Shown here: positions 14,938 to 31,731 of the stretch, piece after piece
Position numbering within the stretch: the first letter of the stretch is position 1
Layout of the letters: each line of letters begins with the position of its first letter
NCBI GenBank assembly: GCA_947165675.1
Contig: CAMVBJ010000014.1
Span: forward strand, 1 to 64,000
Reading direction: 5' to 3'
DNA: 64,000 bases
From: an uncultured Prevotellaceae bacterium
GTDB taxonomy: Bacteria; Bacteroidota; Bacteroidia; Bacteroidales; Muribaculaceae
The notes under the pieces: model-generated
Database searches by the model: none
Seen by the model: the letters and a program-made list of their open reading frames with translations, nothing else
What the model was told of the DNA's origin: nothing
Translations under genes and position numbers: made by a program

Positions 14938-15067
14938 ACCCACACCCGAGGAACTGCGGCATAAAGCGCTGCGTGATGAACTCGAGGCATACCGGGCAGA
15001 ACATGAGAAGCCCTGGTACTTGAAGAAACAGACAAATATCCATAACGAACAAGATAAATATGACTAA
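14924..15067 (+). CDS. 47-residue early phage protein
   Basis: ATG 14924 opens a 47-codon frame (MAKTEPTPEELRHKALRDEL...) that overlaps both neighbours by 14 and 8 bases, as expected in this tightly packed operon. Highly charged and helical. Confidence 0.45.
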   Translation: MAKTEPTPEELRHKALRDELEAYRAEHEKPWYLKKQTNIHNEQDKYD

Positions 15068-15293
15068 GCAGAAAAAATTCCATTTTGTCATACAGGGCAA
15101 TGACGTGTATGAAGAACTGCCGACCACAAGAGCAGCCATCTTTAGTGCGGTGAACCTGTCAGAAGTTGTTCACGTCAAACTCTACCGTGTCCTTGATGAC
15201 GCTGCCGACCAGCTGCTGTTCGACAGCAACAAGTGCAAGGACAGGACTATAGACGGCATCCTCAAGTGGGCCGAGAAAGGAGGCCGCCCATGA
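15060..15293 (+). CDS. Small early phage protein
   Basis: 77 residues. The N-terminal beta strands (KKFHFVIQGNDVYEELP) and acidic middle match no family I know. It ends WAEKGGRP; the Lys-Gly-Gly codons AAAGGAGGC form the ribosome-binding site of the next gene, whose ATG overlaps this stop. Confidence 0.5.
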   Translation: MTKQKKFHFVIQGNDVYEELPTTRAAIFSAVNLSEVVHVKLYRVLDDAADQLLFDSNKCKDRTIDGILKWAEKGGRP

Positions 15294-15529
15294 CAGACGA
15301 TATACTTGACAAGGCTCTCGAGCTGAAAAAGCGAATCAAGGAAAGCGACGAGTTCCTGTCGGTCGTCGAACTCATGGACCCCACCGATCCGCGAGCTACA
15401 GTAACGGTAACCACTCCCAAAAGCAGTGCCTCGTTTCCAGTGTACCGCTACCCATCAGTAGTTATTGCGTTGCGCGCCGCGATGAAAGAAGAATGGCAAT
15501 CGTTAAACCAAAAATACAGTAAATTATGA
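15290..15529 (+). CDS. Small early phage protein
   Basis: 79 residues from ATG 15290 (MTDDILDKALELKKRIKESD), helical at both ends with a threonine-rich centre. Coupled by ATGA overlaps to its neighbours. Longer upstream frame rejected because of the strong Shine-Dalgarno motif placed for 15290. Confidence 0.5.
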   Translation: MTDDILDKALELKKRIKESDEFLSVVELMDPTDPRATVTVTTPKSSASFPVYRYPSVVIALRAAMKEEWQSLNQKYSKL

Positions 15530-15783
15530 GTACCTTATTGATCGCCTACCTGGTAGGCTGTGTAATTGTCCTCCTGATATGGGTGTGGCTCATCATCCAT
15601 ACCCACACACAAGAGGAAATCGACCTTGGCGAGCTGCTGCTGATGCTGGCATTGACCCTGGCCTCCTGGGCAGGCTTGATTGTGGCACTGGTCGCCATCC
15701 TGCAAGACCTGAAGGTCATGAAAGTTGTTGTTTTCCGTATCAAGAAAAGGGAAAAACATGAACCAGAAGGGCCCGAGGTTTGA
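15526..15783 (+). CDS. Small two-helix membrane protein
   Basis: 85 residues with two membrane segments (LLIAYLVGCVIVLLIWVWLII and LLLMLALTLASWAGLIVALVAIL) and a basic cytoplasmic tail (FRIKKREKHEPEGPEV). It resembles holins in topology, but it sits in the early operon away from the lysis genes, so superinfection exclusion or a replication anchor are equally possible. Confidence 0.5.
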   Translation: MSTLLIAYLVGCVIVLLIWVWLIIHTHTQEEIDLGELLLMLALTLASWAGLIVALVAILQDLKVMKVVVFRIKKREKHEPEGPEV

Positions 15784-15901
15784 AGATCTGCCTCTCGAGA
15801 TGCAGAAGCGGGTGCGCAAGCAGATCACCGATATGGTCGCCGAGCGTCCCGTGAAAGTCAGAATGCCGTATTACTTCAAACAGAAAGGAGGTGTTAAATA
15901 G
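15758..15901 (+). CDS. 47-residue early phage protein
   Basis: ATG 15758 opens a 47-codon basic frame (MNQKGPRFEDLPLEMQKRVR...) that overlaps the membrane-protein gene by 26 bases. Near its end KQKGGVK encodes another AAAGGAGGTG motif, but no gene start follows, so the motif here may be a relic or serve a lost gene. Confidence 0.4.
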   Translation: MNQKGPRFEDLPLEMQKRVRKQITDMVAERPVKVRMPYYFKQKGGVK

Positions 15902-16483
15902 GTAAACAATGTGGTAGGGAGACAGGCTTTATATAGTAACTTTAAAACAAAAGTATGTTAACCGTTTAGTTTCTAAGGAAAGCATCCAACCCCAGAAATG
16001 GGGGTGTATAAAAACAACCTGGGCGGTTCGATTCCGCCCCTCCCTGCTTAGTAAATTTCTTTCATTTTCATATACATTCAAATCACGAGGACAGGCCTGC
16101 AGGGATGCACGCCGTCCAGACATCACCCGGCCCGGGAAGGGCGTAAAACAAACAATAAGTATTGATTTTTTCTTCATGAGATTTAGATTTAAGTGTTAAT
16201 AAATTAGTCAATTAGAAAGATGAATTAGTTACTGGGGCCGGCTGCAGGGATGCACCTGGCTATTTCGTGATCCAGCATAGCCTAGAAATGGGGGCCCGCC
16301 AAGCACCCTAACGCTCATCGGTGTTCTTTGTCCGCTTGGTCATCTTGAACACCCTCGCCTGGCGGCGAGCGGAGAAACCGACAACACACCACGCCTGCCG
16401 CCATGAAGTTACCGTCGCCTGCCCTGTCTTTTCGCAGCCCTGGGCCCGTGCGTAAATTCGTGGAAAACTTAATCATTAGAGTT
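15902..16483 (+). other. 582-base non-coding stretch before the fibre genes
   Basis: I see no convincing gene. It contains the tRNA-like element at 15914-16047 and two hairpins with the same core, TGCA-GGGA-TGCA, at about 16090-16118 and 16235-16260. The motif AGAAATGGGGG occurs near 15997 and 16284. Confidence 0.5.
15914..16047 (+). ncRNA. tRNA-like RNA element with canonical T-arm
   Basis: GTAGGGAG (15914-15921) pairs with CTCCCTGC (16040-16047) like an acceptor stem. Directly before the 3' strand is a textbook T-arm: GGCGG, loop TTCGATT, CCGCC (16022-16038). Between them lie about 100 bases rather than the usual 40, with a CCCC/GGGG hairpin near 15991-16004 but no normal D-arm or anticodon arm that I can find. 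It could be a degenerate phage tRNA, a tRNA with an insertion, or a tRNA mimic. Confidence 0.4.
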
Positions 16484-17407
16484 ATGGACGTTAGCAACAT
16501 CACAAGACAGATCTCAGCACTCAGGGCACAGATAGCACCTAACAGTATTACACCAGAGAGCTTGGGCTCGATCCTGCAATCCATCACCAACCTCATCAGT
16601 TCGCTCAGCAACATCGATACAGGTACAGAGACTAACCTGATTTCCCGTGTTGAGGCGCTGGAGGGAGATATGCAGACGGCGATGGGCAAGGCGACAGCGG
16701 CGGCTACAACAGCCGGAAACATGCTCATCGACACCTTCGCCCTGGGAGAGGACAATGTGACCATCACCGTGCAGCAGCATGGCTATTCTGCCATGACGCT
16801 GACACTGGTTCCTGCCACCACATCAAAAGCCGGCATCATGTCGGCTGAAGACAAGGACCACCTGGACAAGGCCTACCAGAGAACCATGGCGTCGTTATCC
16901 TGCTCGAGCACCGAAACACAGGTCAAGCTCAACTACAAACGTCACAATGACCAGGTCACCACCGTGATCCTGGAGGGTGCCTCCTCATCGGCTGCCGGTC
17001 TGATGACCGCCGCCGACAAAGTGAAGCTCGACTCGTTGGGCACGGAGTATGAAACGATCCAGCAGGTGCAGCAGCAAGTGTTATCCATCGCAGACGGGTT
17101 CGCACCGCTGAACATGAGCAAGATTCACATCATCCCCATCTTTGAGGGATTCATGATGCTCGACTCAATGGGACAGAATCTTGACACCGTGGACGGAGCT
17201 ACTTATGATTTCACAGGGGCTCAAGACAAATGCTGGTATAACCCTTCCACTAAGAAGATCATGTATTGGTGGAGCAATGCCGTCGGTGCATCACGATACG
17301 AACCCTCCTACTTCCCTGGCATATTCTTCAACAAGGTGACGGGGCGCTGTTACCGTTGGAATAACACCATGCAGGAGATGCAGGAATGGCTTACTAACCT
17401 CATGTAA
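16484..17407 (+). CDS. Tail fibre / receptor-binding module protein
   Basis: 307 residues from ATG 16484. The first 90 residues are helical and coiled-coil-like (ALRAQIAPNSITPESLGSILQSITNLISSL). Residues 90-210 hold two copies of a fibre-type repeat (TSKAGIMSAEDKDHLDKA and SSAAGLMTAADKVKLDSL), a motif of phage neck and tail fibres. The C-terminal 90 residues are aromatic-rich (KCWYNPSTKKIMYWWSNA, GRCYRWNNTMQEMQEW), likely a binding tip. First of four fibre genes. Confidence 0.65.
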   Translation: MDVSNITRQISALRAQIAPNSITPESLGSILQSITNLISSLSNIDTGTETNLISRVEALEGDMQTAMGKATAAATTAGNMLIDTFALGEDNVTITVQQHGYSAMTLTLVPATTSKAGIMSAEDKDHLDKAYQRTMASLSCSSTETQVKLNYKRHNDQVTTVILEGASSSAAGLMTAADKVKLDSLGTEYETIQQVQQQVLSIADGFAPLNMSKIHIIPIFEGFMMLDSMGQNLDTVDGATYDFTGAQDKCWYNPSTKKIMYWWSNAVGASRYEPSYFPGIFFNKVTGRCYRWNNTMQEMQEWLTNLM

Positions 17408-17421
17408 TCACTGATACATAT

Positions 17422-18123
17422 ATGTTAACGAGAATTCCACATGTACAGGGCAACGAGCTTAGGCTTGGCATTCCCCTGCAGATCGAAACCGTAACCTTAG
17501 AAAATGGCGAGCAAAAGGTTACCTATTCCAATTTTATACCAAACCCATCCTACCCAGTTACCGTAGTGCTCTCCAACGGTATCGCGTGCATTGAAATCGA
17601 AGCCGTGATGGAAGGCAATGTGGCGGTGGCTGTTGAGCCCGGCACAATTACGGAGGGAAAATACAGCTTGACAGTTCTTTGCCGCGATGATCAGGGCAGA
17701 CGGATGCGGCACAAGAGGCGTGCAGCGGTTGAAGTATATGACGTTACCTCTGATGCCGGTCTCCCTGAAGGTATCGAATTTAACTCTGAGGCCCACATCC
17801 TGGACGCTGCCATGTTCATTTTCGCCAAAGGCGACAAGGGCGACGGCATCGCCGGAATATCTGTTGTCGAAAGCGACGAGGATGATGGCTACAATGTCAT
17901 CACCATCACACTCACCACAGGCGAGGAGGTCACGTTCCACGTCAAGAACGGCTCGAAGGGCTACGGCATATCACCCGAGACGCAGCAGGCTATCCTTGAA
18001 GGCCTGGAGCGCATCAAGGGACTGCCTGTGCACAGGTTCCTGTCTGAGAGCGAATATGAGGCACTGGTCAATGCGGACCAGGTTGACCCCGACACGATTT
18101 ACCTGACCTACGAGGACGAGTGA
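17422..18123 (+). CDS. Fibre-associated protein with collagen-like and tail-tip motifs
   Basis: 233 residues. An N-terminal beta-sandwich-like region (about 1-110) precedes a short collagen-like stretch (AKGDKGDGIAGI). The tail ends in FLSESEYEALVNADQVDPDTIYLTYED, a motif repeatedly found at the ends of phage fibre and baseplate proteins. Fourteen bases downstream of the preceding fibre gene and one base before the next small gene. Probably a baseplate-to-fibre adaptor. Confidence 0.6.
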   Translation: MLTRIPHVQGNELRLGIPLQIETVTLENGEQKVTYSNFIPNPSYPVTVVLSNGIACIEIEAVMEGNVAVAVEPGTITEGKYSLTVLCRDDQGRRMRHKRRAAVEVYDVTSDAGLPEGIEFNSEAHILDAAMFIFAKGDKGDGIAGISVVESDEDDGYNVITITLTTGEEVTFHVKNGSKGYGISPETQQAILEGLERIKGLPVHRFLSESEYEALVNADQVDPDTIYLTYEDE

Positions 18124-18124
18124 C

Positions 18125-18286
18125 ATGGAGTACAAGCAAGGAAAAGAGACAACTGGCATCTTTTGGCACCGCACGGAAATCACGGCGAAGTACAAAGGGC
18201 TTCGCCTGGTGTGGCAGAAGCTGAAGAGCATGGGTGCCTGGTTCCACGACCGTGGCTGGTTCCATGACCGTGGCTGGATTAGTTAA
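18125..18286 (+). CDS. 53-residue protein with a duplicated hexapeptide
   Basis: ATG 18125 to TAA 18286. The C-terminus carries two copies of WFHDRG, from an 18-base tandem repeat at 18239-18256 and 18257-18274 with one mismatch. The basic middle (HRTEITAKYKGLRLVWQKLKS) suggests a structural linker. Position between fibre genes supports a virion or assembly role. Confidence 0.45.
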   Translation: MEYKQGKETTGIFWHRTEITAKYKGLRLVWQKLKSMGAWFHDRGWFHDRGWIS

Positions 18287-18308
18287 TCACATAAATCAAT
18301 ATACAAAC

Positions 18309-21300
18309 ATGGCAAAAGAGATAATCATCCAAGGCACTAACCTGCTGGAGTCCCTGGCCGATGCCTGGGGCGGCGTCAATAACACCGGAGCTGACATAAC
18401 CCCTTACTCTGAAAGGGGTGCAACCACTGTCGTTCCCGATGGCTACAAATGGGGCATGAACTTCGCCGAGGTGGAGCGCTTCATCAAGTCCCAGTTCGGC
18501 GACAAGGTCGGCCATTTCGTGATGGAGAACATCAACGGCGTCAACTACCTGCTCGGCTTCGACTCCATCGAGACGTACCAGGCATGGAGCGCTGACAACT
18601 CCGACCCCGACAACCAGCCTATCGTGACCGCCGAGATGGAGACACACGAACGCTACATCGCCCGTGTGGCATCATCGAGCGATCCCGCTGACGAGGTGGT
18701 GACCAACCAGTCCTCGTTCAACGTGGGCATACGTTTCACGGCGCTTCAGTATGAGGGTGGCGAATACGTCAACTCGGGCCTTTCGGGTATCCTCACCTTC
18801 CTCCGCTCGGTGGATGACGGCGTGACCTTCAATGAGGTGGGCAAGGTGAACATCGTCAGCCGTGACGAGAACTCGTCATCGTTCGACCAGATAGACATAG
18901 GCCCCTACCTGCGTGACGGCTACAAGAACATCATCGCGGTGGTGGCCTCCTTCAATGCCGGCGGCGCTACCTACACGTCCCGCCGTGTCCCTGTGGCGAC
19001 GGTGACCTACACATCCCTGTCGCTTGAGTGCATGAGCGACTGGTACAACGCCATCCAGTCCTCCGATATCGTTGACAACGGCCTGCGCCTGTCCTACAAG
19101 GGCTCGTATGCGGTGAACGCCGTGCTGCACATCACGGTAACTGGAAGCCGACAGGACATGGTGACCACCCACCTGCTGGAGGCTGGCACGAGCGGCACCC
19201 AGCAGCAGTTCGCGCTGTTCGACTCCCAGGGGCTCTACGGCCTCAAGACACACGGTGTGCGCAAAGTCACCGCATGGCTCTCTTGCGATGACGGCATGGG
19301 CGGCACGCTCGAAGGCAACAGGCTTGAGAACCGCTTCATGGTCATCGACGCCGACACGGCTGGCGCCAATGCTGACAAGCCCTACCTGATGATCCAGGAT
19401 GTCGTCAACTCGGTAGAGAACTTTGTCCAGACGAAGATCATGGGCTATGCGGTCTATAACCCCGCAGGCAATGAAGCCGTGCCCCTGTCGATTGCCGTCA
19501 CCGATGAGGCCGACGAATACCCTGCAGGCGAATACGAGACCTGGTTCAGCACCCAGCAGAACGCCGTGCCCGGCATGGACTATGACCTGGTGACCTCCAT
19601 TGACATCGAGGATGACGGCAGCACGCCGTTCTTCCGTGCCTACCTTCGCATCTTCAGCGGTGATGACAATATCCTGCAGCGAAGCCTTGGCGGCGCATAC
19701 TGGGCCATCACGGTTGACAACAGCAACTCGTTCAGCCCGAAGGCGGGCGCCTCGTTTATCCTCAACCCGAAGGCCCGCAACAACGATGAGCCGAACCCCG
19801 AGAGCATCATCAACGCTCGCTCTGGAGCTGAGGTGCAGAGCACGTGGACGGGATTCGGCGGCGGCGCTTTCGACAGATGGATCAAGGCTGAGGACGGGTT
19901 CCGTGTGCTGCGTGTGCTTGCAGGACAGCGCCTGAATATCCAATACAACCCCTTCGCCCAATTCGTCAGTGCTCCCAACTCGTCGATGACGCTGGAATTT
20001 GACTTGAAGGTGCGCAACGTGACCAATGAGGACACACCCATCATCGCCATCGGCGAGACCGTGGCAGGAGACAAGCGTGGACTTTTCATCAAACCCATCT
20101 CGGGCAACCTGTTCACAAAGAACGAACCCAATGACAGTGAGACGAACTTCCGCTGGCAGGAAGGCGTGCGCACCCACATCGTGGTCAATATCCACAACGC
20201 GGTGCAGACTGATGTGCGTGGCGACGGCCTCGTGACCGATGACTACTATGCCGAGCAGGGCAGCCCGTCAACGACAAGGATGTTCGCCCGAGTGTTCATC
20301 AATGGCGACATCGAGCGAGAGCTGCTGCTTGCCGGCACCGATGCCGACGAGTTCTGCACGGCGCTGATGTCCAACGGAGGCATCACCATCGGGCAGGACG
20401 GAGCGGACATCGACATCTACTCTATCCGTTGCTATGAGCGCCAGTACCTGGACGCCCAGGACATTGTGCGCAACTATGTCGCCTCGCTGCCCACAGCTGC
20501 CGAGAAGCTGAAAACCCGTGCCGAAAACGACATCATGCGCAACGGCCGTGTCGATGTGGAACGTGTCAAGGCTCTGGGCAAGCGTGTGCTTATCCTTCAC
20601 GGCAAGGAACCCTATAAAATGGACACGTCGGCCAGCGGCAACTGGTGGGAAATCTTCCAGTATGACGGTGACGGCAACCTCATCCCCGAACTGTCGGGAA
20701 CCATCTGCAAGGCTACCGGCATCAGCGAGGTGAAGCGCCAGGGATCGACGGCCAACACCTACTACTATTCCAACCTGCAGACCAAGGTGGATGATGCCAA
20801 CGGCACCATCGATGTCCCTGTCTCGGACATCCACGAGAGCATGACTGTCGGTGAGCCTTACGAGAAGAACGGCGTGATGGTGGTTGACATCTACGGCGGC
20901 AACCTCGGCAAGTCCGACCCCTGGGCTCAGGAGCCTAAGCAGTACCCGTACAATGACGGCGTGGTCACCGTGCCTGACGGATGGGTGGACGGCAACGGCA
21001 AGTACCGTGGCAAGGGATTCATGATCACCGAGGGCACACCGCTGGCGCTGAAGCTCGTGCTCAAAATCAACTATGCGTCATCGATGCAGAGCCATGTGGT
21101 TGGCGGCACACGCCTGTTCAATGACCTGCACCGTGCCATCGTGGGCGACAACGAGATGCAGCAGGTGGTGTCAACCGCACGCGTATCTAAGTACACCGAG
21201 CCGGTGTTCTTCTTTACCCAGCTCGACGAGAACAGCGACGTGGTGTTCCGTGGCATGGGCAACTTCGGTGCGGGAAAGATGGACAAGCCTACATGGGGAT

Positions 21301-24300
21301 ATGTCAAGAGCAAACACCCGATGTTTGCCATGGTGGAGGGTGCCGACAACGACCTTGCCTTGACTGACTTCCGTGTGCCGTTCATCACCGACCCCGAATG
21401 TGACGAGTGCGCCGTGTATGACCCTGAAGAGGAGGGCTGGATCTACAACGGCCTGCAGTGCCTCGACTTTGATGGAGGCAAGACAGACGATGACGGCTAC
21501 CCTGTGCAGGCGCTCATTGACCGCATTGCCGAGACATGGAACTGGGTATATCTGCACTCACCGAACATCAAGGTGTACAACGGCTCGTTCGAGTCGTTCA
21601 TGCAGTCCGACAAGGCCGCTGACCATACGAGCAAATACTGGTGCACCAGGGGCGCTGAGGCGTTCCGTCTCAAACGTTTCAACGAAACGGGCGACGGCAC
21701 CTGGGTGGATGCCGGTCTGTGGAATAACGGTTCTTACGGGGTCATCGACCTCCGTACCGACCCTGTCACCAAGCCCGCATACGACATCTATTCCGACCCG
21801 TCGGCGCAGATGTCACTGTCGGAACTGAACGAGCTGTTCAAGGCCAAAATCGTGGCTGATGCTAAGAAATACATCGGGCGCTACTTCAAGGTGGACTCGC
21901 TGAAGTTCCACTATGCCTTCGTGAACCACTTCATGGCGGGCACGGACAACTGTAGCAAAAACACCTACTTCGTGCTCATGCCGGTGGCCACTCCCGTGAC
22001 CATTGACGGCGTGACTGAGAACTGCTACCTGTGGGAACTGCACCAGGACGACGTGGACACCATCCTGATCACCGACAACAACGGACGCTCTACCAAGCCT
22101 TACTACATCGACCGTATGCACCCCTATTCGGATGACAATCCTGGAGAGAGCTGCTACATGGGTGGTCACAACCAGCTGTTCAACCTGTGCGAGGAGATGT
22201 GGGAAGGCGACGGCGACAACTCGAAGATCGCCGAGATGCTGCGCCGCATCTTCACCGCCATGGTGGGCCTTGTCAGCGATGCCGACGTCATCGACGGCTA
22301 CAGCAAGACGGTGTTGGGCTGCATGGAGAAGTACATGCTGTACAGCCAGCATTACTTCCCGCAGATGGCTTACAACGAGCAGGCCCGAATCCGCTACGAG
22401 TTCCCCGCCACGCTGGGTTACATTTCGTCGGGCAAAGGCGAGCGCCATATCCCGCCCATCACCCAGTCGATGGGCTCGCAGCTGCAGGCTGAGACGCAGT
22501 TCATCAAGCGCCGGCTCGTCTACATGGCCAGCTATGCCGCATGGGGTGAGTTCAGTGGTGACAACAACTACCGGAGCGGCGTCGCCGAGACGTCTGCCAC
22601 GTTCGGTTTCGAGCCTACGGCCCTGCCTAACGGCCAGACGATGGATTACGGGTTTGACTTAACTCCTCACATGTACATCTACCCGAGCGGTGCGCTTGGT
22701 CAGACAGCCGTCTGCCCGCGTCACCGTGTGGCTCCCGGCGAGACCTGGCGCCTGCGTATCGGTCGCCCTGGCACTGGCGATACTGGCGTGTCGCTGTTCG
22801 CCATCAACTTCTACCGCAAGATAGGCAACGTGGGTGACATGTCCGTCAATCCTAACAACAGTGCCACGGCCAATGGTAACCGCCTCACTGAATTTGTCGC
22901 CGAGCCTACCACACAATACGAGGTTGACGGCAGGACGGTGGGCGCCTACAGGCCCAACCGCATCAACGTCACGGCGCTGCTGCTCCGCACCGTCAGCCTG
23001 CACGGCAGCGGTATCGGCGGACAGCTCGACCTGCGCTCACAGGCGAGACTGGAAGAGATCGACCTTGGTGGCACTTACATCATCAATGTGCAGCTGCCCC
23101 AGACCAAGCGCCTGACCGACCTGGTGCTGCCTAACTCGCTGGCGACACTCGCCATCGATGGGCAGCCGAACCTTGAAAACGTCTCATTTGACAGTCCGAG
23201 CGGTTATAGTCTCGAGACCATCCGCATCCTCGGGAACACCAACCTTGCGGACTTCACACGCTCGCTGGTGCTCACTGTGCTCGATGAGGGCGGGTTGAAT
23301 ACGCTTACCCTCGACAATGTGGACTGGACGGGCGAGAATGCGATACCTGCCGCTTCTTTCTCACAGCTGCTTGAAGTGCCCAACGTGAACATCGAGGGCA
23401 CCATAGAGGTGACTGGAGAGGTGACGGCGGCCATGGCGTTGCGCCTTGTCAGCAAGTTCCCGTGGCTGTACGATGAGGACTCCCCGCTGACGGTGACCTA
23501 TTCGGAGGTGCCGTTGTCAAGCGCCGCCATCAAATGCTCGGATTACGGCGTCAACGGTGATTACCTGGGCGAAGAAGGTGACTACCAGCTCGGCATTGTG
23601 CCGACGCCCTCATCGGCCAACAACATCCACAAAGTCGTGTGGTCGCTGTCGATGGGTTCCTCGGCAGGTGCGGCAAGCATCAACCAGGACGGCGTGCTGC
23701 ATGTGGAATCCCTGAACACGACGAACCAGAACAAGATCACCGTCACTGCCACCATCACCACCTCGACGGGAACTGTGACGGCCACGAGGTCGATTGCGCT
23801 GTACGCCCATGAGGCCGCCATCGGTGACCTGGTGTTCTCGGATGGCTCATACAGCAACACCATCCTTGCGGGCAAGTCGCCTGTGGCTGCGTGCTTCTAC
23901 ATCGATCCGGACAATCCGAACAACAGGCTTGCCGTGGCGCTGCAGGACTTGTCGCAAGGGCCGTGGGGACTGTACAACAACAATCAGATGACAGACAGCA
24001 ACAACGGTATTCCCAACGTGAAGCTGGACATCGAGGCAAGCGACACCTCAGACGCCGCGAAATACCGTTGCTACAATGTCGCAGCACTGCCGAACTACCC
24101 GCAGCCAGGTATACAAGGTACTATTACCGCCTCGAACTACACTGATGCGAACGAGCCAGACGGCTTCAAGAAGTTCACGCCGCTCAATCAGGCTCTCGCG
24201 GACATCGGCTTCATCACGCTCGAGAACCAGGTGGGCAGGTATGCCGCAGGCGAAACCATCTCTGCGGGCCAGTTCAACACGCAGGTGATTCTGCTGCATC

Positions 24301-24806
24301 GCAATATGGTGCTTGAGGGCGTGACCATCCAAGGGTTCAACCGCTACTCGTACTACCCGTTCAATGTGGTCAGCGGAACGCCTGAGATGACACAGCTGCA
24401 GACCGCCATCAATGCCATCGTGGCTGCCAAGGGTAACCTCTACAGGCAGTTCTTCTGGCCTGCTGCCAGCCAGTGCGATGCCTACGAACCGACGGTGCGC
24501 ACCGACCTCGGCGAAGTGCTGGACGACAAGTTCAAGGCGCACAACTGGGCGCTGCCGAGCGCGGGCGAACTCGGACGCATCTACTATTGGGACAAGATTG
24601 ACCAGACAGGAAAGTTCAACCTTGCTAAATCGGTTGACGGCCGATTTGCGACAATGATTGCCCAATACTACTGGTCGAGCACGGAGCACGGCGGTCCCAA
24701 TGACATTCATTCGTCCTGGGCTGTCCGGGGTTCGGATGGTTGGGTCAACCTCAACTACGGTAAGTTCTACACCGGTAATCAGGTGCGTGCGGTGGTCGCG
24801 TTTTAA
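18309..24806 (+). CDS. Giant receptor-binding protein diversified by the retroelement
   Basis: 2165 residues from ATG 18309. From N to C: a beta-rich region; a concanavalin/LamG-like domain (about 545-750); a long middle part; a leucine-rich-like stretch (about 1580-1660, LEEIDLGGTYI, LTDLVLPNSLATLAI); an Ig/BIG-like domain (about 1740-1840); and a C-type-lectin-like end (DUF1566/FGE type). The last 33 residues contain the variable repeat (24706-24799), within WAVRGSDGWVNLNYGKFYTG. It should sit at the tail tip and bind the host surface. The frame upstream to 18234 overlaps another gene and is rejected. Confidence 0.85.
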   Translation: MAKEIIIQGTNLLESLADAWGGVNNTGADITPYSERGATTVVPDGYKWGMNFAEVERFIKSQFGDKVGHFVMENINGVNYLLGFDSIETYQAWSADNSDPDNQPIVTAEMETHERYIARVASSSDPADEVVTNQSSFNVGIRFTALQYEGGEYVNSGLSGILTFLRSVDDGVTFNEVGKVNIVSRDENSSSFDQIDIGPYLRDGYKNIIAVVASFNAGGATYTSRRVPVATVTYTSLSLECMSDWYNAIQSSDIVDNGLRLSYKGSYAVNAVLHITVTGSRQDMVTTHLLEAGTSGTQQQFALFDSQGLYGLKTHGVRKVTAWLSCDDGMGGTLEGNRLENRFMVIDADTAGANADKPYLMIQDVVNSVENFVQTKIMGYAVYNPAGNEAVPLSIAVTDEADEYPAGEYETWFSTQQNAVPGMDYDLVTSIDIEDDGSTPFFRAYLRIFSGDDNILQRSLGGAYWAITVDNSNSFSPKAGASFILNPKARNNDEPNPESIINARSGAEVQSTWTGFGGGAFDRWIKAEDGFRVLRVLAGQRLNIQYNPFAQFVSAPNSSMTLEFDLKVRNVTNEDTPIIAIGETVAGDKRGLFIKPISGNLFTKNEPNDSETNFRWQEGVRTHIVVNIHNAVQTDVRGDGLVTDDYYAEQGSPSTTRMFARVFINGDIERELLLAGTDADEFCTALMSNGGITIGQDGADIDIYSIRCYERQYLDAQDIVRNYVASLPTAAEKLKTRAENDIMRNGRVDVERVKALGKRVLILHGKEPYKMDTSASGNWWEIFQYDGDGNLIPELSGTICKATGISEVKRQGSTANTYYYSNLQTKVDDANGTIDVPVSDIHESMTVGEPYEKNGVMVVDIYGGNLGKSDPWAQEPKQYPYNDGVVTVPDGWVDGNGKYRGKGFMITEGTPLALKLVLKINYASSMQSHVVGGTRLFNDLHRAIVGDNEMQQVVSTARVSKYTEPVFFFTQLDENSDVVFRGMGNFGAGKMDKPTWGYVKSKHPMFAMVEGADNDLALTDFRVPFITDPECDECAVYDPEEEGWIYNGLQCLDFDGGKTDDDGYPVQALIDRIAETWNWVYLHSPNIKVYNGSFESFMQSDKAADHTSKYWCTRGAEAFRLKRFNETGDGTWVDAGLWNNGSYGVIDLRTDPVTKPAYDIYSDPSAQMSLSELNELFKAKIVADAKKYIGRYFKVDSLKFHYAFVNHFMAGTDNCSKNTYFVLMPVATPVTIDGVTENCYLWELHQDDVDTILITDNNGRSTKPYYIDRMHPYSDDNPGESCYMGGHNQLFNLCEEMWEGDGDNSKIAEMLRRIFTAMVGLVSDADVIDGYSKTVLGCMEKYMLYSQHYFPQMAYNEQARIRYEFPATLGYISSGKGERHIPPITQSMGSQLQAETQFIKRRLVYMASYAAWGEFSGDNNYRSGVAETSATFGFEPTALPNGQTMDYGFDLTPHMYIYPSGALGQTAVCPRHRVAPGETWRLRIGRPGTGDTGVSLFAINFYRKIGNVGDMSVNPNNSATANGNRLTEFVAEPTTQYEVDGRTVGAYRPNRINVTALLLRTVSLHGSGIGGQLDLRSQARLEEIDLGGTYIINVQLPQTKRLTDLVLPNSLATLAIDGQPNLENVSFDSPSGYSLETIRILGNTNLADFTRSLVLTVLDEGGLNTLTLDNVDWTGENAIPAASFSQLLEVPNVNIEGTIEVTGEVTAAMALRLVSKFPWLYDEDSPLTVTYSEVPLSSAAIKCSDYGVNGDYLGEEGDYQLGIVPTPSSANNIHKVVWSLSMGSSAGAASINQDGVLHVESLNTTNQNKITVTATITTSTGTVTATRSIALYAHEAAIGDLVFSDGSYSNTILAGKSPVAACFYIDPDNPNNRLAVALQDLSQGPWGLYNNNQMTDSNNGIPNVKLDIEASDTSDAAKYRCYNVAALPNYPQPGIQGTITASNYTDANEPDGFKKFTPLNQALADIGFITLENQVGRYAAGETISAGQFNTQVILLHRNMVLEGVTIQGFNRYSYYPFNVVSGTPEMTQLQTAINAIVAAKGNLYRQFFWPAASQCDAYEPTVRTDLGEVLDDKFKAHNWALPSAGELGRIYYWDKIDQTGKFNLAKSVDGRFATMIAQYYWSSTEHGGPNDIHSSWAVRGSDGWVNLNYGKFYTGNQVRAVVAF
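24706..24799 (+). repeat. DGR variable repeat (VR)
   Basis: 94 bases at the end of the giant fibre gene, aligned with the 91-base template at 25445-25535. All six substitutions fall on template adenines: 25467 A to G, 25489 A to C, 25490 A to T, 25495 and 25496 A to G, 25504 A to T. No other base differs. VR has one extra codon (TAC, 24756-24758). The shared end GCGTGCGGTGGTCGC acts as the GC-rich end that marks the target. Confidence 0.92.
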
Positions 24807-24812
24807 GATTAA

Positions 24813-24838
24813 GGCTGGGGACTTTGACGTCCCCAGCC
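24813..24838 (+). promoter_or_regulatory. Hairpin just downstream of VR
   Basis: GGCTGGGGAC (24813-24822) pairs perfectly with GTCCCCAGCC (24829-24838) around a 6-base loop, 13 bases past VR. No T-run follows, so a terminator is unlikely. In the Bordetella phage DGR a hairpin at the same place increases retrohoming; the same role is inferred. Confidence 0.7.
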
Positions 24839-24876
24839 ATCACCGCGCAGCGGTTCGATTTTTTTGGGATTTTTAC

Positions 24877-24884
24877 TACCTTTG
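24877..24884 (+). promoter_or_regulatory. Promoter -7 element for the Avd-TR-RT unit
   Basis: TACCTTTG ends 4 bases before ATG 24889. With Bacteroidota spacing the transcript would start at or within the start codon, giving a leaderless mRNA and expression separate from the fibre gene. Confidence 0.6.
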
Positions 24885-24888
24885 CGGC

Positions 24889-25329
24889 ATGAAACCGAAT
24901 CAGGCATCTATCTATCGGGATATCGAGCGGCTGCTGGAATGGTCTATTCCGGTGGTCGAACGGTTGCCTCGTTCCCTGCCGTACAAGGAGCTTGGCGGGC
25001 TGCTGATCCGCGACCTCAAGGAGGCGCTGGATTTTGTCGTGCTCGCATTCCAGGCTGATGGCACGCTGGAACGTGTGGAGTGCATCAACGCCGTGATCAT
25101 GCGAATGACATCGGTGAAAACGTCGTACCGGGTCATGAACCGCGTGCGCCGTGATGCCATCTCACACGGACAGTACGCCCAGGCGCTTGACATGTTGAAC
25201 GTCATCGCTGACCAGGCTGGAAAATGGCTGAAGAAGAACAGGTCGGTACTCGCTGAAAAGAGAAAACTGGAGTCGCACGGTGACCCTGTGCAGCTGTCTC
25301 TGTTCAGCGATGAAGACCTGAAGCGGTGA
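24889..25329 (+). CDS. avd: DGR accessory variability determinant (Avd-like)
   Basis: 146 residues, all helical and basic (LIRDLKEALDFVVLAFQ, VKTSYRVMNRVRRDAISHGQYAQALDMLNVIADQAGKWLKKNR). This is the four-helix-bundle Avd family, which forms a barrel-shaped pentamer that binds the reverse transcriptase and the template RNA. Its position between VR and TR is the standard order. ATG 24889 is chosen because the family similarity starts there and a promoter lies directly upstream. Confidence 0.85.
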   Translation: MKPNQASIYRDIERLLEWSIPVVERLPRSLPYKELGGLLIRDLKEALDFVVLAFQADGTLERVECINAVIMRMTSVKTSYRVMNRVRRDAISHGQYAQALDMLNVIADQAGKWLKKNRSVLAEKRKLESHGDPVQLSLFSDEDLKR

Positions 25330-25356
25330 ACGACAATCATAGCGATTACGGTTACT

Positions 25357-26868
25357 ATGGTTCATCCCCTCATATCAAACGGGCGTGGCACTGTAACGCA
25401 AGTTATAGTTAGTAAGCGAGTAGTCCACGCATCATTGCACGATGTTCATTCGTCCTGGGCTGTCCGAGGTTCGGATGGTTGGGTCAACAACAACAATAAG
25501 TTCAACACCGGTAATCAGGTGCGTGCGGTGGTCGCTCTTGACATCGAGGAGAAAGAGGGATGGATAGATGCCTATTTTGATTGCATTAGGAATAAGCTCA
25601 GGGCGAAACAATGCAACGAGTACCGCATAGACTATGAAGAAGACCTTTGGAAACTGGTATGGGAGGTCCACAGCCGGACTTATCGGCCGAGCGAGGCGTT
25701 CTGCTTTATCGTCACCCGCCCGAAAAGACGTGAGATTTTCGCTGCAGCCTTCCGTGACCGTATCGTCCAGCATTGGATCATGCTCCGTCTTGAGCCGCTA
25801 ATTGAGCGCAGGTTCAGATTGCAGGGGGATGTCTCGTTCAACAGCCGTAAAGGGTATGGATGCCTTCGCGCCATTCAGGTGGCACGAATGCACATCGAGC
25901 GCATAAGCGAACGGTACACGAAAGAGGCATGGGTGGCGAAGGTCGATATCAGCGGATTCTTCATGAGCATCGATAAGGATGTCATGCTCGAGAGGCTTTT
26001 ACCGTTCATCAGGTCGGAATACCAGGGCAAAGACATCGATACGCTGTTGTGGCTTACCGAGGTGACGATACGCCACCTGCCGCAAGAACAGTGCGAAAGG
26101 CGCTCTCCGTTGTCCATGTGGAAAGGTCTGCCTGCCAGCAAGAGCCTGTTCGACATGCCGCCCAACAAGGGCCTGCCTATCGGCAACATCACCTCGCAGC
26201 AGCTGTCCAACTTCTACATGTCCTTCTTCGATGACTTTATGCGTGAGCAATGTGAGTTCAGTAATGCCGCTTTTGTCCGCTTCGTGGATGACGTGCTGAT
26301 TGTTGCCAGAGATAAGCGCTTCATCCTTGAACTGAGGGTAAAGGCCCAGCAGTGGTTGAAGAAGCACCTGAAGCTGAGGCTCCATCCTGACAAGTTCTAC
26401 CTCCAGGAAGCCCGCAAGGGCGTGGCGTTTGTCGGCAGCGTGATCAAGCCTGGCCGGACATATACGTCGAACCGTACCATGGGCAACATGGCCCTGTGCG
26501 TCCGGAATACGGACAGGCTGTGCAGGCGCATCGTAGAAGAAGGCGCAACGCTTGAATCGCTGAGGGAACTGAGGCACCTGGTGCAAAGCCTCAACTCCTA
26601 TATGGGCTATTGTGTCCACAACTACACCTACAACCGCCGTAAGGAAATCTTCAGCGGTGCCCGCTACTTCTGGAAATGCTGCAATATCCAGCAGCGTTTA
26701 TCGGTTGTCAAGGTGAAGAAAAAGTACAATTATGAATTATTCCTAATCAAAACAGACCAATTACAACATGAAGCAGAAATCAGCAACCTTGCCCCCCTTG
26801 GTAAGCGTGAGAAGAGACGCGGGGCAAAACATCTTCACCGTGGCGTTCAACGTAAACGAAACGGCTGA
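25357..26868 (+). CDS. DGR reverse transcriptase
   Basis: 503 residues in the longest frame. RT motifs in order: DVSFNSRKGYG near 160, KVDISGFFMSID near 193 (motif A), LPIGNITSQ near 278 (motif 4, with the DGR-type SQ ending), FVRFVDDVLIVAR near 307 (catalytic DD), and a thumb. It makes adenine-mutagenised cDNA from TR. There is no ATG between 25357 and the RT domain, so either TR (25445-25535) is translated as residues 30-60 or a GTG at 25519 or 25528 is used. The 3' end overlaps the next gene by 101 bases. Confidence 0.92.
   Translation: MVHPLISNGRGTVTQVIVSKRVVHASLHDVHSSWAVRGSDGWVNNNNKFNTGNQVRAVVALDIEEKEGWIDAYFDCIRNKLRAKQCNEYRIDYEEDLWKLVWEVHSRTYRPSEAFCFIVTRPKRREIFAAAFRDRIVQHWIMLRLEPLIERRFRLQGDVSFNSRKGYGCLRAIQVARMHIERISERYTKEAWVAKVDISGFFMSIDKDVMLERLLPFIRSEYQGKDIDTLLWLTEVTIRHLPQEQCERRSPLSMWKGLPASKSLFDMPPNKGLPIGNITSQQLSNFYMSFFDDFMREQCEFSNAAFVRFVDDVLIVARDKRFILELRVKAQQWLKKHLKLRLHPDKFYLQEARKGVAFVGSVIKPGRTYTSNRTMGNMALCVRNTDRLCRRIVEEGATLESLRELRHLVQSLNSYMGYCVHNYTYNRRKEIFSGARYFWKCCNIQQRLSVVKVKKKYNYELFLIKTDQLQHEAEISNLAPLGKREKRRGAKHLHRGVQRKRNG
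25445..25535 (+). repeat. DGR template repeat (TR)
   Basis: 91 bases with 19 adenines, many in AAC/AAT codons (25486-25497), the usual design that lets adenine mutagenesis sample many amino acids without making stops. It is in frame with the reverse transcriptase. Relative to VR it lacks one codon inside an AAC run, consistent with loss of one repeat unit. Confidence 0.92.
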
Positions 26869-27589
26869 AGGGTATGAATTTGAAACGGCGGAACTCCCGC
26901 CTGGTGTGTGGCGCCGTGACCTGATCATCTCGGCAATCATCCGGGCCAAATACAGCGCGGATGACATGGAGGCCATCGCCATGAATGTGCTGGCCGACAT
27001 CACCAGCAAGGATGCCCGCAACGAGCACAGGGCGATGCAGCAGTGGCGCATGAAGGCGAAAGAGTGGGCGCGTGAGCTAATGCAGTGGGCACAGGAAAAC
27101 GGCATGGCTGAGGCTGAGACGCAGCCCGACCCTGCCCCTGCAGATCCTGACGAGACCATCGAGGGAGCCGATGGCATCGATACGCTGTCTGCGGCCGTGA
27201 TCCTGGCAAAGGATGACGCGGAAACCCTCGAGGACGAGAAAGCCATGGAAGTGCCGGAACTGTTCCCACTATGGGCTGACCAGATCGGCAAGCAGCTGAA
27301 GGCTGGCGAGCGATACACCTACCGACGCCGCCTCTACAAGGTGCTCCAGGATCACACTGCACAGGCAGATTGGTCGCCGGACGTGGCAGCATCGCTGTTT
27401 ACCGAGGTAGCCGCATCGCCTGAACAGGGCACGCACGACAATCCGATACCGTACAACGGGAATATGGAGCTGGTGGAGGGACTGTATTACTCCCAGGACG
27501 GCGCGACATACCTCTGCACACGGTCGACGGGCGTGCCGGTTTACAATGCGCTTCGCGACCTGGTTAACCTCTACGTGGTCGTGGCATGA
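26768..27589 (+). CDS. Fibre accessory protein with carbohydrate-binding-like C-terminus
   Basis: 273 residues. N-terminal 80 residues mixed alpha/beta, a basic helical stretch and an acidic Pro/Asp/Glu linker (110-150). The C-terminal 90 residues resemble small chitin-binding (CBM5/12) modules: GERYTYRRRLYKVLQDHTAQADWSP followed by YNGNMELVEGLYYSQDGATYLCTRSTGVPV. Such modules are frequent on phage fibres. It overlaps the RT gene by 101 bases, so it is co-transcribed with the retroelement. Possibly a fibre cap or chaperone. Confidence 0.55.
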   Translation: MKQKSATLPPLVSVRRDAGQNIFTVAFNVNETAEGYEFETAELPPGVWRRDLIISAIIRAKYSADDMEAIAMNVLADITSKDARNEHRAMQQWRMKAKEWARELMQWAQENGMAEAETQPDPAPADPDETIEGADGIDTLSAAVILAKDDAETLEDEKAMEVPELFPLWADQIGKQLKAGERYTYRRRLYKVLQDHTAQADWSPDVAASLFTEVAASPEQGTHDNPIPYNGNMELVEGLYYSQDGATYLCTRSTGVPVYNALRDLVNLYVVVA

Positions 27590-27657
27590 TTCTTGCCAGT
27601 GTGCAAAGAATTGGAAAGAACAATGTGACATAATTTTTTTGTTAAAAATTGCTTTGG

Positions 27658-27691
27658 CGGTGGCTGCTCGGGAGGGTGGCCATCGTTTTTC
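27658..27691 (+). terminator. Terminator with conserved loop, copy A
   Basis: CGGTGGCT pairs with GGCCATCG (27658-27665 with 27678-27685) and is followed by five T. A twin lies at 44765-44803 with the same loop (GCTCGGGAGGGT) but different, still pairing stem bases. It ends the fibre/DGR transcript. Confidence 0.7.
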
Positions 27692-27930
27692 TTGGAAACG
27701 CCGCTCGCGCGCGGGAAGCCCCCATCACACGTCCCAACGAATTAAGTTCGCCCCGGGCGGGGCTCACGGAATAAGGTATTTTTTCATTGTTGACTCATCA
27801 CTCTCGGCTGCTGCCATTTCGCCGAACCGTTCGCGTGAATTGCGGGGGATAGGAAGCCATGACTTTTTGTTTTTAATGATCAATGGAGCGCTTGGTCTTA
27901 ACCTCGCTCCTAACTTTTTACACCGCGAAG
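27692..27930 (+). other. Non-coding stretch between terminator A and structured leader A
   Basis: No gene seen. GC-rich at 27700-27770 with short palindromes (CCCCGGGCGGGG), then AT-rich. It probably holds the promoter for the leader, but I cannot fix a -7 element. Confidence 0.35.
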
Positions 27931-28041
27931 GTAGTGCGGCACGCGGCCAGCAAGGGTGAAATGCACTCCAGGGAAAAATCTCCAGCCCCTGACGGGGTAG
28001 TATTTTTCCCTTCCGCCCTTGCCTTAGCCGCTAACACCGCA
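27931..28041 (+). ncRNA. Structured 5' leader, copy A
   Basis: Nested stems fold the whole stretch into one long hairpin: TGCGG/CCGCA (27935, 28037), GCGGC/GCCGC (27943, 28027), CAAGGGTG/CGCCCTTG (27951, 28014), GGGAAAAAT/ATTTTTCCC (27971, 28002), CCCC/GGGG (27986, 27994). A second copy lies at 44904-45013. Each ends 77-78 bases before the ATG of a small gene. I cannot name an RNA family; a cis-regulatory leader is the best reading. Confidence 0.6.
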
Positions 28042-28117
28042 TACTTCGCTTGCAGTGTAAAAAGGTTATACGCGAGAACAAGACCAATGATTATTAATTT
28101 TTAAAAACAAAAAAGTT

Positions 28118-28567
28118 ATGGCAACATCTATCAACAATTCAGTGAACAATTCGTCGGCAGCTGCCGAGAGTAATGAGAGTAAAAAGGGTTTCCGCTCCTC
28201 CAATCCCAATAATTTGGATTTGATACTGGCGAGCGAGAAGCAGGTCAAGAGCGGGGCCATGATGTGGCGAGTGTACCGCAAAGCAGCCGACGGCACCGAG
28301 TCCAAGCCCTTCTATTTCGCAAATGCCCTCAAGGCCCTGCGCTATGCCTACATCCTCAAGAAGACACAAGGCGGATTTATCCCCGCTGCCATCTACGACA
28401 AACTCAAAGCAGCCATCGAGGCCATGAGCGAGGACGAGAGGAAAGAAGCAGCCAAGCCGAGCAGGAAGCCAGCCACCGCACAACAAGAGGCAGCACCCGC
28501 ACCCGCCGAGGAGCCCAAGCCCAAGAAAAAGCGCAGCACTAAGCGCACCAAAAAAGAGGCTGCATAA
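28118..28567 (+). CDS. Small basic-tailed protein behind structured leader A
   Basis: 149 residues. The N-terminus is Ser/Asn-rich and contains KKGFRSSNPNN; a compact middle (GAMMWRVYRKAADGTESKPFYFANALKALRYAYILKK) precedes an Ala/Pro/Lys tail (PKPKKKRSTKRTKKEAA) like histone-type DNA-binding tails. The gene behind leader B has a similar start (KKGYRSCELNN). Function unknown; the basic tail suggests nucleic-acid binding. Confidence 0.55.
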   Translation: MATSINNSVNNSSAAAESNESKKGFRSSNPNNLDLILASEKQVKSGAMMWRVYRKAADGTESKPFYFANALKALRYAYILKKTQGGFIPAAIYDKLKAAIEAMSEDERKEAAKPSRKPATAQQEAAPAPAEEPKPKKKRSTKRTKKEAA

Positions 28568-28730
28568 TTGACAGTCACACGCCAGAGCTCAGGCGCCAGA
28601 CAGACAGTCGGGCGCCTGGACCGGCATGTCCCGGGGAGACCGGCGCCGCCGTGCCACGCTGAGCGTAGCACGGCGGCAGGGCGTTCGCGCTGTCTTTTCC
28701 TCAAGGCCCAAAGCATGGTAATTTCGCTAT

Positions 28731-29009
28731 ATGAATAAGCTGACGACAGAAATTAAGCTCAATATCCAGCTCGGCATAGCGATCGTGCTGGTGGCCGCCG
28801 GGCTCGTGCTGCTGTTCTGCGGCTTCTGGATCGATCCGCAAGGCGAGATCCACAACTCGGTACTGGTGGCCTTCGGCGAATGTTGCACGTTCGCCGGATC
28901 ACTCGTCGGGGTAGATTACCACTACCGGTTCAAGACCTACGAGGACCGCCGCCACCACCATCAACCTCCCTATAATCCCGATAACGATGAAACACTTCAC
29001 GATGAATGA
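28731..29009 (+). CDS. Putative holin
   Basis: 92 residues with two membrane segments (LGIAIVLVAAGLVLLFCGFWI, 13-34; VLVAFGECCTFAGSLVGV, 44-62) and a polar His/Pro-rich tail. It directly precedes the endolysin gene, overlapping it by 23 bases, which is the main reason for calling it a holin. Confidence 0.65.
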   Translation: MNKLTTEIKLNIQLGIAIVLVAAGLVLLFCGFWIDPQGEIHNSVLVAFGECCTFAGSLVGVDYHYRFKTYEDRRHHHQPPYNPDNDETLHDE

Positions 29010-29391
29010 GATGACCCGCTCGGCCACGGCCAGGCGCAAGGGCATCAACAACAACCCGTCTCCGCAAGTCGCCCAGAGCATCACTGCCCTGGTCGAGAAG
29101 ATCCTGGACCCGCTGCGCGAAGCATGGGGCCAGCCCATCATTGTATCGTCCGGCTATCGATGCCCCAAGCTCAATAAACTTGTCGGCGGTGCCGCCAACA
29201 GCCAGCACATGCTGGGCGAAGCGGCAGACATCCACACGGTGAGCGATAAGCCTGAAGACAACCGTCGGCTGTTCCAGCTGATCCAGAGGCTTAACCTGCC
29301 CTATGACCAGCTCATCGATGAGTATGGCTACAACTGGATCCACGTGTCCTACGGCCCGCGCAATCGCCATAGAATTCTTCACCTCAAATAG
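28987..29391 (+). CDS. Endolysin, peptidase M15 family
   Basis: 134 residues. The zinc site of M15 D-Ala-D-Ala type peptidases is complete: SQHMLGEAADIH (about 71-82, His and Asp ligands) and WIHVSYG near 115 (second His), with the substrate motif SSGYRCPKLN near 53. It cuts peptide cross-links of peptidoglycan. There is no signal peptide, so release depends on the preceding holin. Confidence 0.85.
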   Translation: MKHFTMNEMTRSATARRKGINNNPSPQVAQSITALVEKILDPLREAWGQPIIVSSGYRCPKLNKLVGGAANSQHMLGEAADIHTVSDKPEDNRRLFQLIQRLNLPYDQLIDEYGYNWIHVSYGPRNRHRILHLK

Positions 29392-29399
29392 ATATCGCT

Positions 29400-29975
29400 A
29401 TGAATGACCGCTACAAATCCTGTTTCATGAGTATCGTCTTCATCCTCCTGATGGTAGTCGTGCTGCTCATCTTGTCCATGTCGTTTTCCTCCTGCCACAC
29501 GCAGAAGCAAACGAATCAGTCGGCAACCGCATCGGCCATGGCCGCTACGGTTGCCTCCCAGGATCTCGCCTCTGCCTCGCGGCAGAAGCTCGACCGCTCG
29601 TTATCACTCCAGCTCGACGACCTGGAGATCTTGTTCCCCGTTCCAGGCGCTGACGGTCGTTTCGCCCAGGGCGAAATGACGGACAGCGTGGAAGGGCTGG
29701 CGTGGCAGGAAGCCCCCTCGATGCTTGGCGACCTCCGGGCGCCTGCGCGTCTCAGGGCAAGGAAAGCGACAATCACGGCAGCTGCAGCACAGGAGCATGA
29801 AGACGTCAAAACAGCTCATCTCGAGGACTCGACAATCCGGCAAGAGGCCGTACATAATACGATGGAGAAGTCGGTGGCCACCACCGCGGTCGCCAAACCA
29901 GTGCCCCCCTGGGCGCTCATCATCATCCTGGCTGTGGCAGCTCTGGTCATAGCATCACGCATCGGTAAGCGCTGA
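29400..29975 (+). CDS. Possible one-piece spanin
   Basis: 191 residues. An N-terminal hydrophobic segment ends in SFSSC, a lipobox-like site for lipidation (Cys32). The centre is a long charged helical region with predicted coiled coil (120-155), and the C-terminus is a membrane segment (WALIIILAVAALVIASRIGKR). An outer-membrane lipoprotein end joined to an inner-membrane helix is the plan of unimolecular spanins such as T1 gp11. It is third in the lysis cassette. Confidence 0.55.
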   Translation: MNDRYKSCFMSIVFILLMVVVLLILSMSFSSCHTQKQTNQSATASAMAATVASQDLASASRQKLDRSLSLQLDDLEILFPVPGADGRFAQGEMTDSVEGLAWQEAPSMLGDLRAPARLRARKATITAAAAQEHEDVKTAHLEDSTIRQEAVHNTMEKSVATTAVAKPVPPWALIIILAVAALVIASRIGKR

Positions 29976-31053
29976 CGATGCAAAGAGACCGCTCGCTGCG
30001 CTCTCGGTCTCCTTGCATCTGTACGCTTAGCACAATAGCATAAAAGTATCAGCCCATAGTTTTAAAGTTAATGTTCGGACTGCCCGGCGCTGTGCATGAT
30101 CACAGCATCGGGCAGTCTCGTTAAGCGGTAGGCTCACAGGCCAGGTCGAGACCGCCGGGGGCGGGCTCTTCCCTGACTCTGCTCGCGATTGTCTGGATGG
30201 TGATCCGCCAGGCCATGATGATTGCGTGATGCCCAGTACACTCCGCGCTCTCGCTATTACGCAGAGGGCTCGGCTCGCTGTTCCCACCGCAACCCAGACG
30301 TGCCCGGCACAAGTCACAGGGTACAGGCTACGTTCCTCCACTTGTACGCTGTGACTTGCGCCCGACACTTGCTTCTGGGTAGCGGTGACGCTCACTCTCG
30401 CCCACTGCTGCATGGCGAGGACGCTACGTTACCTGGTCTCACTCCATCATCATCGCCCGGCGCATGGTGACGGCCCCATGGCATGGAGATGCCATTGCGG
30501 CACCCAGCCACGGCTCGGTGCCTCGATGCCCAAGACCAGGGCAGGCCCTCGTCTTGGACGGGTGAGGTGACGGACTCACGCACACCCTGATGCGCCCGAC
30601 TCTGGCGCGCCCGGCGCATCACCGCGCATCGGCTCGCTCGGCCTCGCTCACCTGCACAATTTTAACACCCGTTCACATATTCCGCTATCGACAAAGGGAG
30701 AGTCGCAGACACGCAGCGCAGGGCGGGCGGGGGGTCTTCCGACGGAATCAAGGGGAATTTTCCCCTTGATAATCCCCTATTCGGCCTGTTTTACAGCCCT
30801 TTGAATTTTCGTGAGCTGAAAGACAACGAAAATTAACGAAACGTGCCGCCGTTTCATCACGGTTCCAGCGCCGAAAACGCTGGCTTTTTGCTCACCTCAT
30901 CAATGAGGCGAGCAGGATCCGCAACCTGGCAGAAAATTAACATTCGTTAGTGGCCAGGTTGCAGAAAACGTAAATATACGTCTTATAACGTACATTTACC
31001 ACGGAATTTACTACCTTTGCAGGCAGTAACTAATTCATTAAAACAATATCAAT
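29976..31053. other. 1.1-kb non-coding region rich in hairpins
   Basis: No gene is supported. Hairpins: 29977-30018 (GAGACCG/CGGTCTC); 30079-30115 (ACTGCCCG/CGGGCAGT with inner GCTGTG/CACAGC); a long imperfect one, 30285-30325 with 30343-30387 (CAAGTCACAG/CTGTGACTTG, CACCGC/GCGGTG); 30530-30557 (CCAAGAC/GTCTTGG with AGGGC/GCCCT); 30589-30620 (GATGCGCC/GGCGCATC); and ATCAAGGGGAA/TTCCCCTTGAT near 30748-30771. Origin, packaging site or non-coding RNA are possible. Confidence 0.5.
30969..31019 (+). promoter_or_regulatory. Promoter of the lipoprotein gene with paired operators
   Basis: CGTAAATATACG (30969-30980) and CGTACATTTACC (30989-31000) are 20 bases apart, like the pair at 9443/9463. The -7 element TACCTTTG lies at 31012-31019. 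Here the pair covers the -33 region, so binding could repress or activate. Confidence 0.65.
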
Positions 31054-31729: not shown

Positions 31730-31731
31730 GC

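Follow-up and report, generated by a model that had tools for sequence, protein, structure and literature searches.

What defines the template of a diversity-generating retroelement (DGR) when hardly any space is left between the template repeat (TR) and the reverse transcriptase (RT) gene? This question is raised by a DGR in a 64,000-nt stretch of DNA, here called the window, that comprises positions 1 to 64,000 of the forward strand of contig CAMVBJ010000014.1 from an uncultured Prevotellaceae bacterium, a gut member of the Bacteroidales (assembly GCA_947165675.1). Judged from its sequence, the element appears to be set apart from known DGRs by a clade-conserved RNA on the template side that is absent from Rfam 15, and by a bias in the length of the variable repeat (VR). 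The whole is probably best explained by a DGR that belongs to a Bacteroidales-type clade of RTs and sits in an integrated prophage. It would work as follows. RT and the accessory protein Avd would bind a transcript carrying the RNA element and the TR, and RT would copy the TR, erring at adenines. The RNA element, with its stem P1 and hairpin P2, would mark the 5′ end of the template, either by halting reverse transcription there or by serving as a docking site. The complementary DNA (cDNA) would then replace the VR, altering a loop of the C-terminal lectin-like domain of the target protein. At tracts of four or more AAC codons the VR would tend to gain a codon, so that loop length might vary too. 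Finally, since the diversified domain would cap a giant CotH-like-kinase protein, the DGR may retarget binding by the phage and perhaps by the kinase.

The repeats, their genes and their relatives

The TR (25445..25535) and the VR (24706..24799), both on the plus strand, differ by five substitutions, and all five are at template adenines (TR positions 25467, 25492, 25495, 25496, and 25504). With 19 adenines in the 91-nt TR, the probability of this by chance is about 4e-4. The VR also carries a 3-nt insertion (24749..24751, plus strand), the exact placement of which is ambiguous within the AAC tract (25486-25497 in the TR). On the assumption that the absent template codon was AAC, two further adenine-derived changes lie in the inserted codon. 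An earlier note on this DNA had reported six differences, all at template adenines. The adenines stand, but the count is five and the insertion had been overlooked. In the whole genome the TR has two matches at E ≤0.001, itself and the VR described here, and there is one RT of this DGR kind. Just 3′ of the stop codon of the target gene lies a 10-bp hairpin (24813..24838, plus strand; -22.9 kcal/mol, z -6.8), in a position like that of the hairpin that follows the initiation of mutagenic homing (IMH) site in known DGRs. Hairpins 3′ of the VR were also folded in two relatives.

Two genes lie beside the repeats, as the earlier note had said. The Avd-like gene (24889..25329, plus strand) matches the PHROG family "Avd protein of DGR" (E 2.1e-9), although one score points the other way: with the NCBIfam model DivGenRetAVD its product reaches E 4.1e-6 and 27 bits, where the cut-off is 80. 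The RT gene (25519..26868, plus strand) matches RVT_1 (E 2.3e-16). Its motif 4 reads IGNITSQ, which agrees with the earlier description of an SQ-type motif; a section heading of PMC3521204 gives SQ in motif 4 as the rule for DGR RTs.

One aspect that needs attention is where translation of the RT begins. The open reading frame (ORF) opens at an ATG at 25357 and the TR lies in its frame. Could translation start there and run through the TR, so that the TR encodes the N-terminal region of the RT? The TR is in the RT frame, with no intervening stop codon, in the nine closest loci (some of them near-duplicates). However, the variation does not look like that of a coding sequence. Across seven sequences, the sites that vary in the leader between the Avd gene and the TR are spread over the codon positions as 9/35, 16/34, and 13/34, with no third-position excess, whereas the RT core has one (15/53, 13/53, and 45/54). 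A start codon within the TR would account for the common frame, and in one locus (L013) the RT frame crosses the TR in another frame. Translation of the TR is therefore improbable. The true start is probably not 25357 but a GTG in the 3′-terminal part of the TR, at 25519 or 25528.

Has this DGR been used recently? Close relatives by RT (65-73% identity) occur in five contigs of viruses and in four genomes from the window's genus (G003 included). The VR adjoins the cassette in L007 and G076, as in the window, and lies 28-31 kb from the TR in six other elements (G015, G003, G088, G414/G415, G419, and G420). This remote VR ends a homologous target in G415, G015, G088, and G003. The G415 and G088 backbones, the two checked by protein families, carry the phage transposase phrog_310 and can be read as Mu-like, so the Avd-TR-RT cassette seems to be common to different types of phage, one with a Mu-like transposase and one an integrase prophage. 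In G003, G088, G419, and G420 the TR is identical and the four VRs are all different, with 6, 8, 9, and 9 differences from the template, 32 of 32 at template adenines. The earlier note had reasoned that VRs identical across relatives, or substitutions at other template bases, would speak against its reading; neither is seen in these four relatives. A DGR that is merely intact-looking but decayed would fit one observation, a frame break before the VR in the target of the G076 relative. Against decay, the RT, Avd, and target frames of the window are all open and every VR substitution there is at an adenine, which makes this alternative highly improbable. The earlier description of a complete DGR holds (TR and VR, an Avd-like gene, a DGR-type RT, and the hairpin are all present), and a complete, recently used element is well supported by these comparisons. 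It may still be active in the window genome.

Two observations on individual relatives can be added. The frame break in the G076 target (L028) puts the VR domain out of frame with the rest of the protein and is possibly an assembly error. The TR of L006/L008 (G414:C1, G415:C1 20994-21096) differs from the TR of L005 by changes from A to other bases that are also present in its own VR, the picture that would result if a mutagenised copy had replaced the original TR.

The structured RNA element before the template

The stretch between the Avd gene and the TR is strongly conserved, yet its variation is unlike that of coding sequence. It contains a structured RNA element (25376..25432, plus strand) that ends 12 nt 5′ of the TR and scores 52.4 bits (E 6.9e-9) with our model R1, a score that is not independent because the window copy is one of the 21 training rows. 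Its closing stem P1 (25383-25388/25425-25430, plus strand) and hairpin P2 (25390-25397/25402-25409, plus strand) are kept in relatives while the sequence changes. In the training rows 93.2% of paired cells can pair, compared with 67.1% in shuffles, although the P1 share of this figure is biased because many rows were chosen by exact P1 complementarity; P2 was not a criterion. A second set consists of 76 matches outside the training loci (68 distinct rows, some equal or near-equal to training rows, aligned to the R1 model). Here 93.9% of cells pair, compared with 62.9% when shuffled and 22-42% when slid, and 222 cells are changed on both sides compared with 57 in shuffles. Folded alone, the window copy has modest stability (z -2.3; 7 of 200 shuffles fold as well).

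How widespread is the element? At E ≤0.01, R1 matches are found in 42/88, 58/80, 20/60, and 0/57 sources of four groups, which include near-duplicate contigs. The last group, a single distant RT lineage, can be taken as a negative control. A search of 397 genomes of the family with stricter filters gave ten matches, each 5′ of a DGR RT. Among cultured Bacteroides phages, F2 and F4 carry the element at 38.5 bits and BS-TP1 has a weak match to it (19.9 bits, E 0.0067). Burkholderia phage Magia has no R1 match. It matches no Rfam 15 family: a gathering search of the window returned tRNA only, and a permissive search of 24600-26000 returned a single match below the cut-off, at 24812-24897 on the opposite strand. 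No description of the element was found among the listed open-licence papers on DGRs and RNA structure, supplements excluded, which does not establish that it is undescribed.

Not everything fits a conserved RNA, and three results weigh against it. At E 0.01, 165 of 285 sources have no R1 match, among them all 57 of the distant lineage. Similarly, 6 of the 16 RT-bearing genomes in the family set have none. Lastly, base pairs with change on both sides number 13 compared with 11.4, a count reached by 77 of 500 shuffles in an alignment that was itself fitted to the structure.

The position of the element is a clue to what it might do. Where the TR is known (91 loci, those used for training among them), the element ends a median of 5 nt before it (5-95% range -12 to 14.5 nt). 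The conserved RT core begins about 10 nt 3′ of the TR in the window, so there is hardly room for a non-coding 3′ spacer like that of the Bordetella phage BPP-1; this gap reaches tens of nt in some wider relatives (compared after removal of loci that repeat the same region). The P1/P2 element is thus placed where copying would end, and by analogy it may mark the 5′ end of the template or dock the RT-Avd complex. The main rival is that the element is a leader controlling translation of the RT, or of the whole cassette, with no function in the template. It lies upstream of the RT and on the same strand in all 119 R1 matches that were placed (of 125; L028, L031, L193, L195, L196 (minus strand), and L035 were excluded), and the RT start is probably just 3′ of it, within the TR. 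Position alone cannot separate the two roles, because the RT follows the TR so closely. However, the spacing is tight with respect to the TR and loose with respect to the RT core (93 to 251 nt), which counts against a leader. We consider a leader unlikely, and a template-side role the better reading of the element.

AAC tracts and the length of the variable repeat

The VR is one codon longer than the TR in the window, L007, L010, and G076. Counted together with its close relatives, the window is one of four with a longer VR (the others being L007, G076, and G414), and five have VR and TR of equal length (G015, G003, G088, G419, and G420). Is this a general tendency? The pair set began with 353 loci, of which 268 yielded 339 pairs; the other 85 had none under the filters used (50 nt, 4 or more mismatches, and 80% of these at A). 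Seven remote pairs brought it to 346 rows, of which 308 are unique; a self-match row for L007 was replaced, and eleven gaps that are not a multiple of three (-7, -4, -1, +2, and +5) were excluded. Where the AAC/AAT tract has at least four codons, the VR is longer in 18 pairs, shorter in 1, and equal in 96 (sign test 7.6e-5; 14 to 1 when counted by TR cluster, p 0.001). One of these insertions, in L102, is outside the tract, leaving 17 to 1 in or at it. With tracts of three codons the VR is longer in 4, shorter in 2, and equal in 119, and with two or fewer it is longer in 2, shorter in 2, and equal in 64. The shorter tracts are nearly balanced, so the +3 skew is confined to long ones. The aligner recovered simulated changes of +3 and -3 about equally (95.1% and 95.5%). 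This simulation used 114 pairs from the first data set and covers the aligner, not BLAST seeding. BS-TP1, which is outside the pair set, also has a VR with +3 in its AAC tract.

Indels of a multiple of three in AAC repeats have been ascribed to template slippage (Wu 2018, as related in part of PMC12875486). The direction of the change, a gain of three, may be new. There is evidence that length can change during copying. Two TR cores are each associated with both VR lengths (L009 at +3 with L011 at 0; L173 at +3 with L164, L172, and L343 at 0), and L310 and L277 have a VR at -3 on TRs common to their groups. These four same-TR groups favour a change during copying, but their tracts have three units, which makes them indirect evidence for longer ones.

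Perhaps the TR, rather than the VR, is what changed. In this scenario the TR contracts by replication slippage after homing, and the 3-nt difference has nothing to do with copying. The tract does vary from 4 to 6 units across related TRs. A single TR core, with a tract of 4 units, is common to L129 and L130, and each has a VR at +3, as contraction would produce, although this pair does not discriminate. The two cores with both VR lengths are an observation that does not fit, but they have 3-unit tracts, for which the skew is not significant. We put TR contraction at somewhat below an even chance. It is also conceivable that slippage is symmetric and that longer loops are selected. After all, only surviving VRs are visible, six targets, when aligned, have natural loops of 4 to 7 codons, and single shorter VRs do occur on common TRs (L310 and L277, as above). 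Selection is a serious possibility too, if not quite one that we would favour. If a directional gain of codons during copying is nevertheless true, DGRs explore loop length besides sequence.

This leads to a possible generalisation. There might be a large DGR clade, with little or no spacer 3′ of the TR, in which a 5′ P1/P2 element ends reverse transcription or docks RT-Avd and the RT adds whole codons on AAC tracts. We offer this tentatively, and for the clade as a whole regard it as somewhat doubtful.

The target protein, the prophage and known systems

The target gene (18309..24806, plus strand) encodes 2165 residues from its ATG, or 2190 from an alternative GTG at 18234. The product is presumably several times the length of Mtd, the target in BPP-1. 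It matches phrog_24896 (E 6.5e-65), a family of unknown function. The earlier note had called it a giant fibre. The size holds, but the label is incomplete, because a structure model of the middle of the protein is a CotH-like kinase (approximately 20982..22550, plus strand) and the end weakly resembles a lectin. In the kinase segment D338, N343, D372, D373, and D375 (segment numbering, unmapped onto known CotH residues) are invariant in 25 of 25 members; the D-x4-N pattern is a putative mark of CotH catalytic residues. The C-terminal fold, which the earlier note had left to prediction, comes out as a weak match to Lcl_C and C-type lectins (24528..24794, plus strand), and the VR sits over this match at the 3′ end of the gene. 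In the gene order of a Mu-like relative the target follows the tape measure gene, so it is probably a part of the tail or virion. Several points count against this picture. Foldseek with the kinase-domain model gave no match at E 0.001, a profile search of PDB sequences with the kinase region found no CotH, the best Foldseek match for the lectin fold has E 0.19, and gene order is the sole basis for placing the protein in the tail.

Its size is not unusual among DGR targets of RT relatives. At least 1800 residues are found in 36 of 250 targets, a count that takes in near-duplicate contigs, and every one of the 36 is a relative of the window target. The 250 have a plus-strand VR in an open frame of more than 600 nt and were drawn from RT relatives, and so are not a random sample.

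The prophage spans about 50 kb (8850..59103, no strand assigned) between att repeats of about 62 nt (8850-8911 and 59042-59103, with exact 60-mers in common) that overlap the 3′ end of a tRNA-Pro gene (59089-59163). A tyrosine integrase gene (57752..59035, minus strand; PF00589, E 1.7e-8) lies beside the att repeat, and the interior encodes an endolysin, a head protease, a terminase large subunit, a portal protein (E 1.2e-5), and a tape measure protein. There is a second integrase-family gene in mid-prophage (33383-34339; phrog_1, E 2.4e-50). The gene 3′ of the RT (26768-27589) accompanies the cassette in relatives and has a sub-threshold match to the carbohydrate-binding family CBM_5_12.

How does this compare with known systems? 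BPP-1, the main mechanistic model of DGRs, is alike in its Avd-TR-RT order, in VR changes that are specific to adenines, in a VR that lies at the 3′ end of its target gene (Mtd), and in a hairpin after the VR. The difference is in the RNA. According to PMC12875486, the spacer that separates TR from RT in BPP-1 is structured; it recruits RT-Avd and serves to prime the cDNA. Reverse transcription is terminated by a motif on the other side of the TR, 5′ of it, where avd ends. The structured spacer of BPP-1 is 3′ of the TR, whereas the conserved RNA of the window is 5′ of it. An RNA on the opposite side of the TR offers a place to study template definition outside BPP-1, and one that is clade wide and includes phages already in culture. 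The window also resembles DGR group 3 of Schillinger 2012, in which the RT ORF begins within the TR; there the overlap is with the annotated ORF (in the part of PMC3521204 describing the group), whereas our codon-position data suggest a late start codon.

Among cultured phages, the Bacteroides phages F1, F2, and F4 (Bacuni, infecting B. uniformis) have an RT 36-38% identical to that of the window and an Avd. F2 and F4 carry the window-type RNA element; F1 was outside that comparison. Their targets are smaller and fimbrial-tip-like, with one VR near the RT and one far away, and F1 and F4 infect different hosts although only 24 single-nucleotide polymorphisms (SNPs) separate them, of which 18 fall in a VR (PMC8143477). 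By analogy with F1 and F4, a change of host range through the window target is plausible. BS-TP1 of B. salyersiae (L421) is similar to the window in having a four-helix-bundle gene, an RT, the RNA element, and a longer VR. Its 2187-residue target, annotated merely as hypothetical, is 25% identical over 798 columns, with only the 3′ part compared; since the phage is cultured, it is a practical model. It is unlike the window in being a 111.7-kb phage with an RT that is 37.5% identical. Finally, fusion of a CotH kinase with a hypervariable C-type lectin is described as occasional in phage genomes and unstudied (PMC8008677). The window target appears to pair the same domains, here supported by a matching kinase fold and by residues that do not vary across 25 members, and poses the question of why a phage would diversify the binding tip of a kinase.
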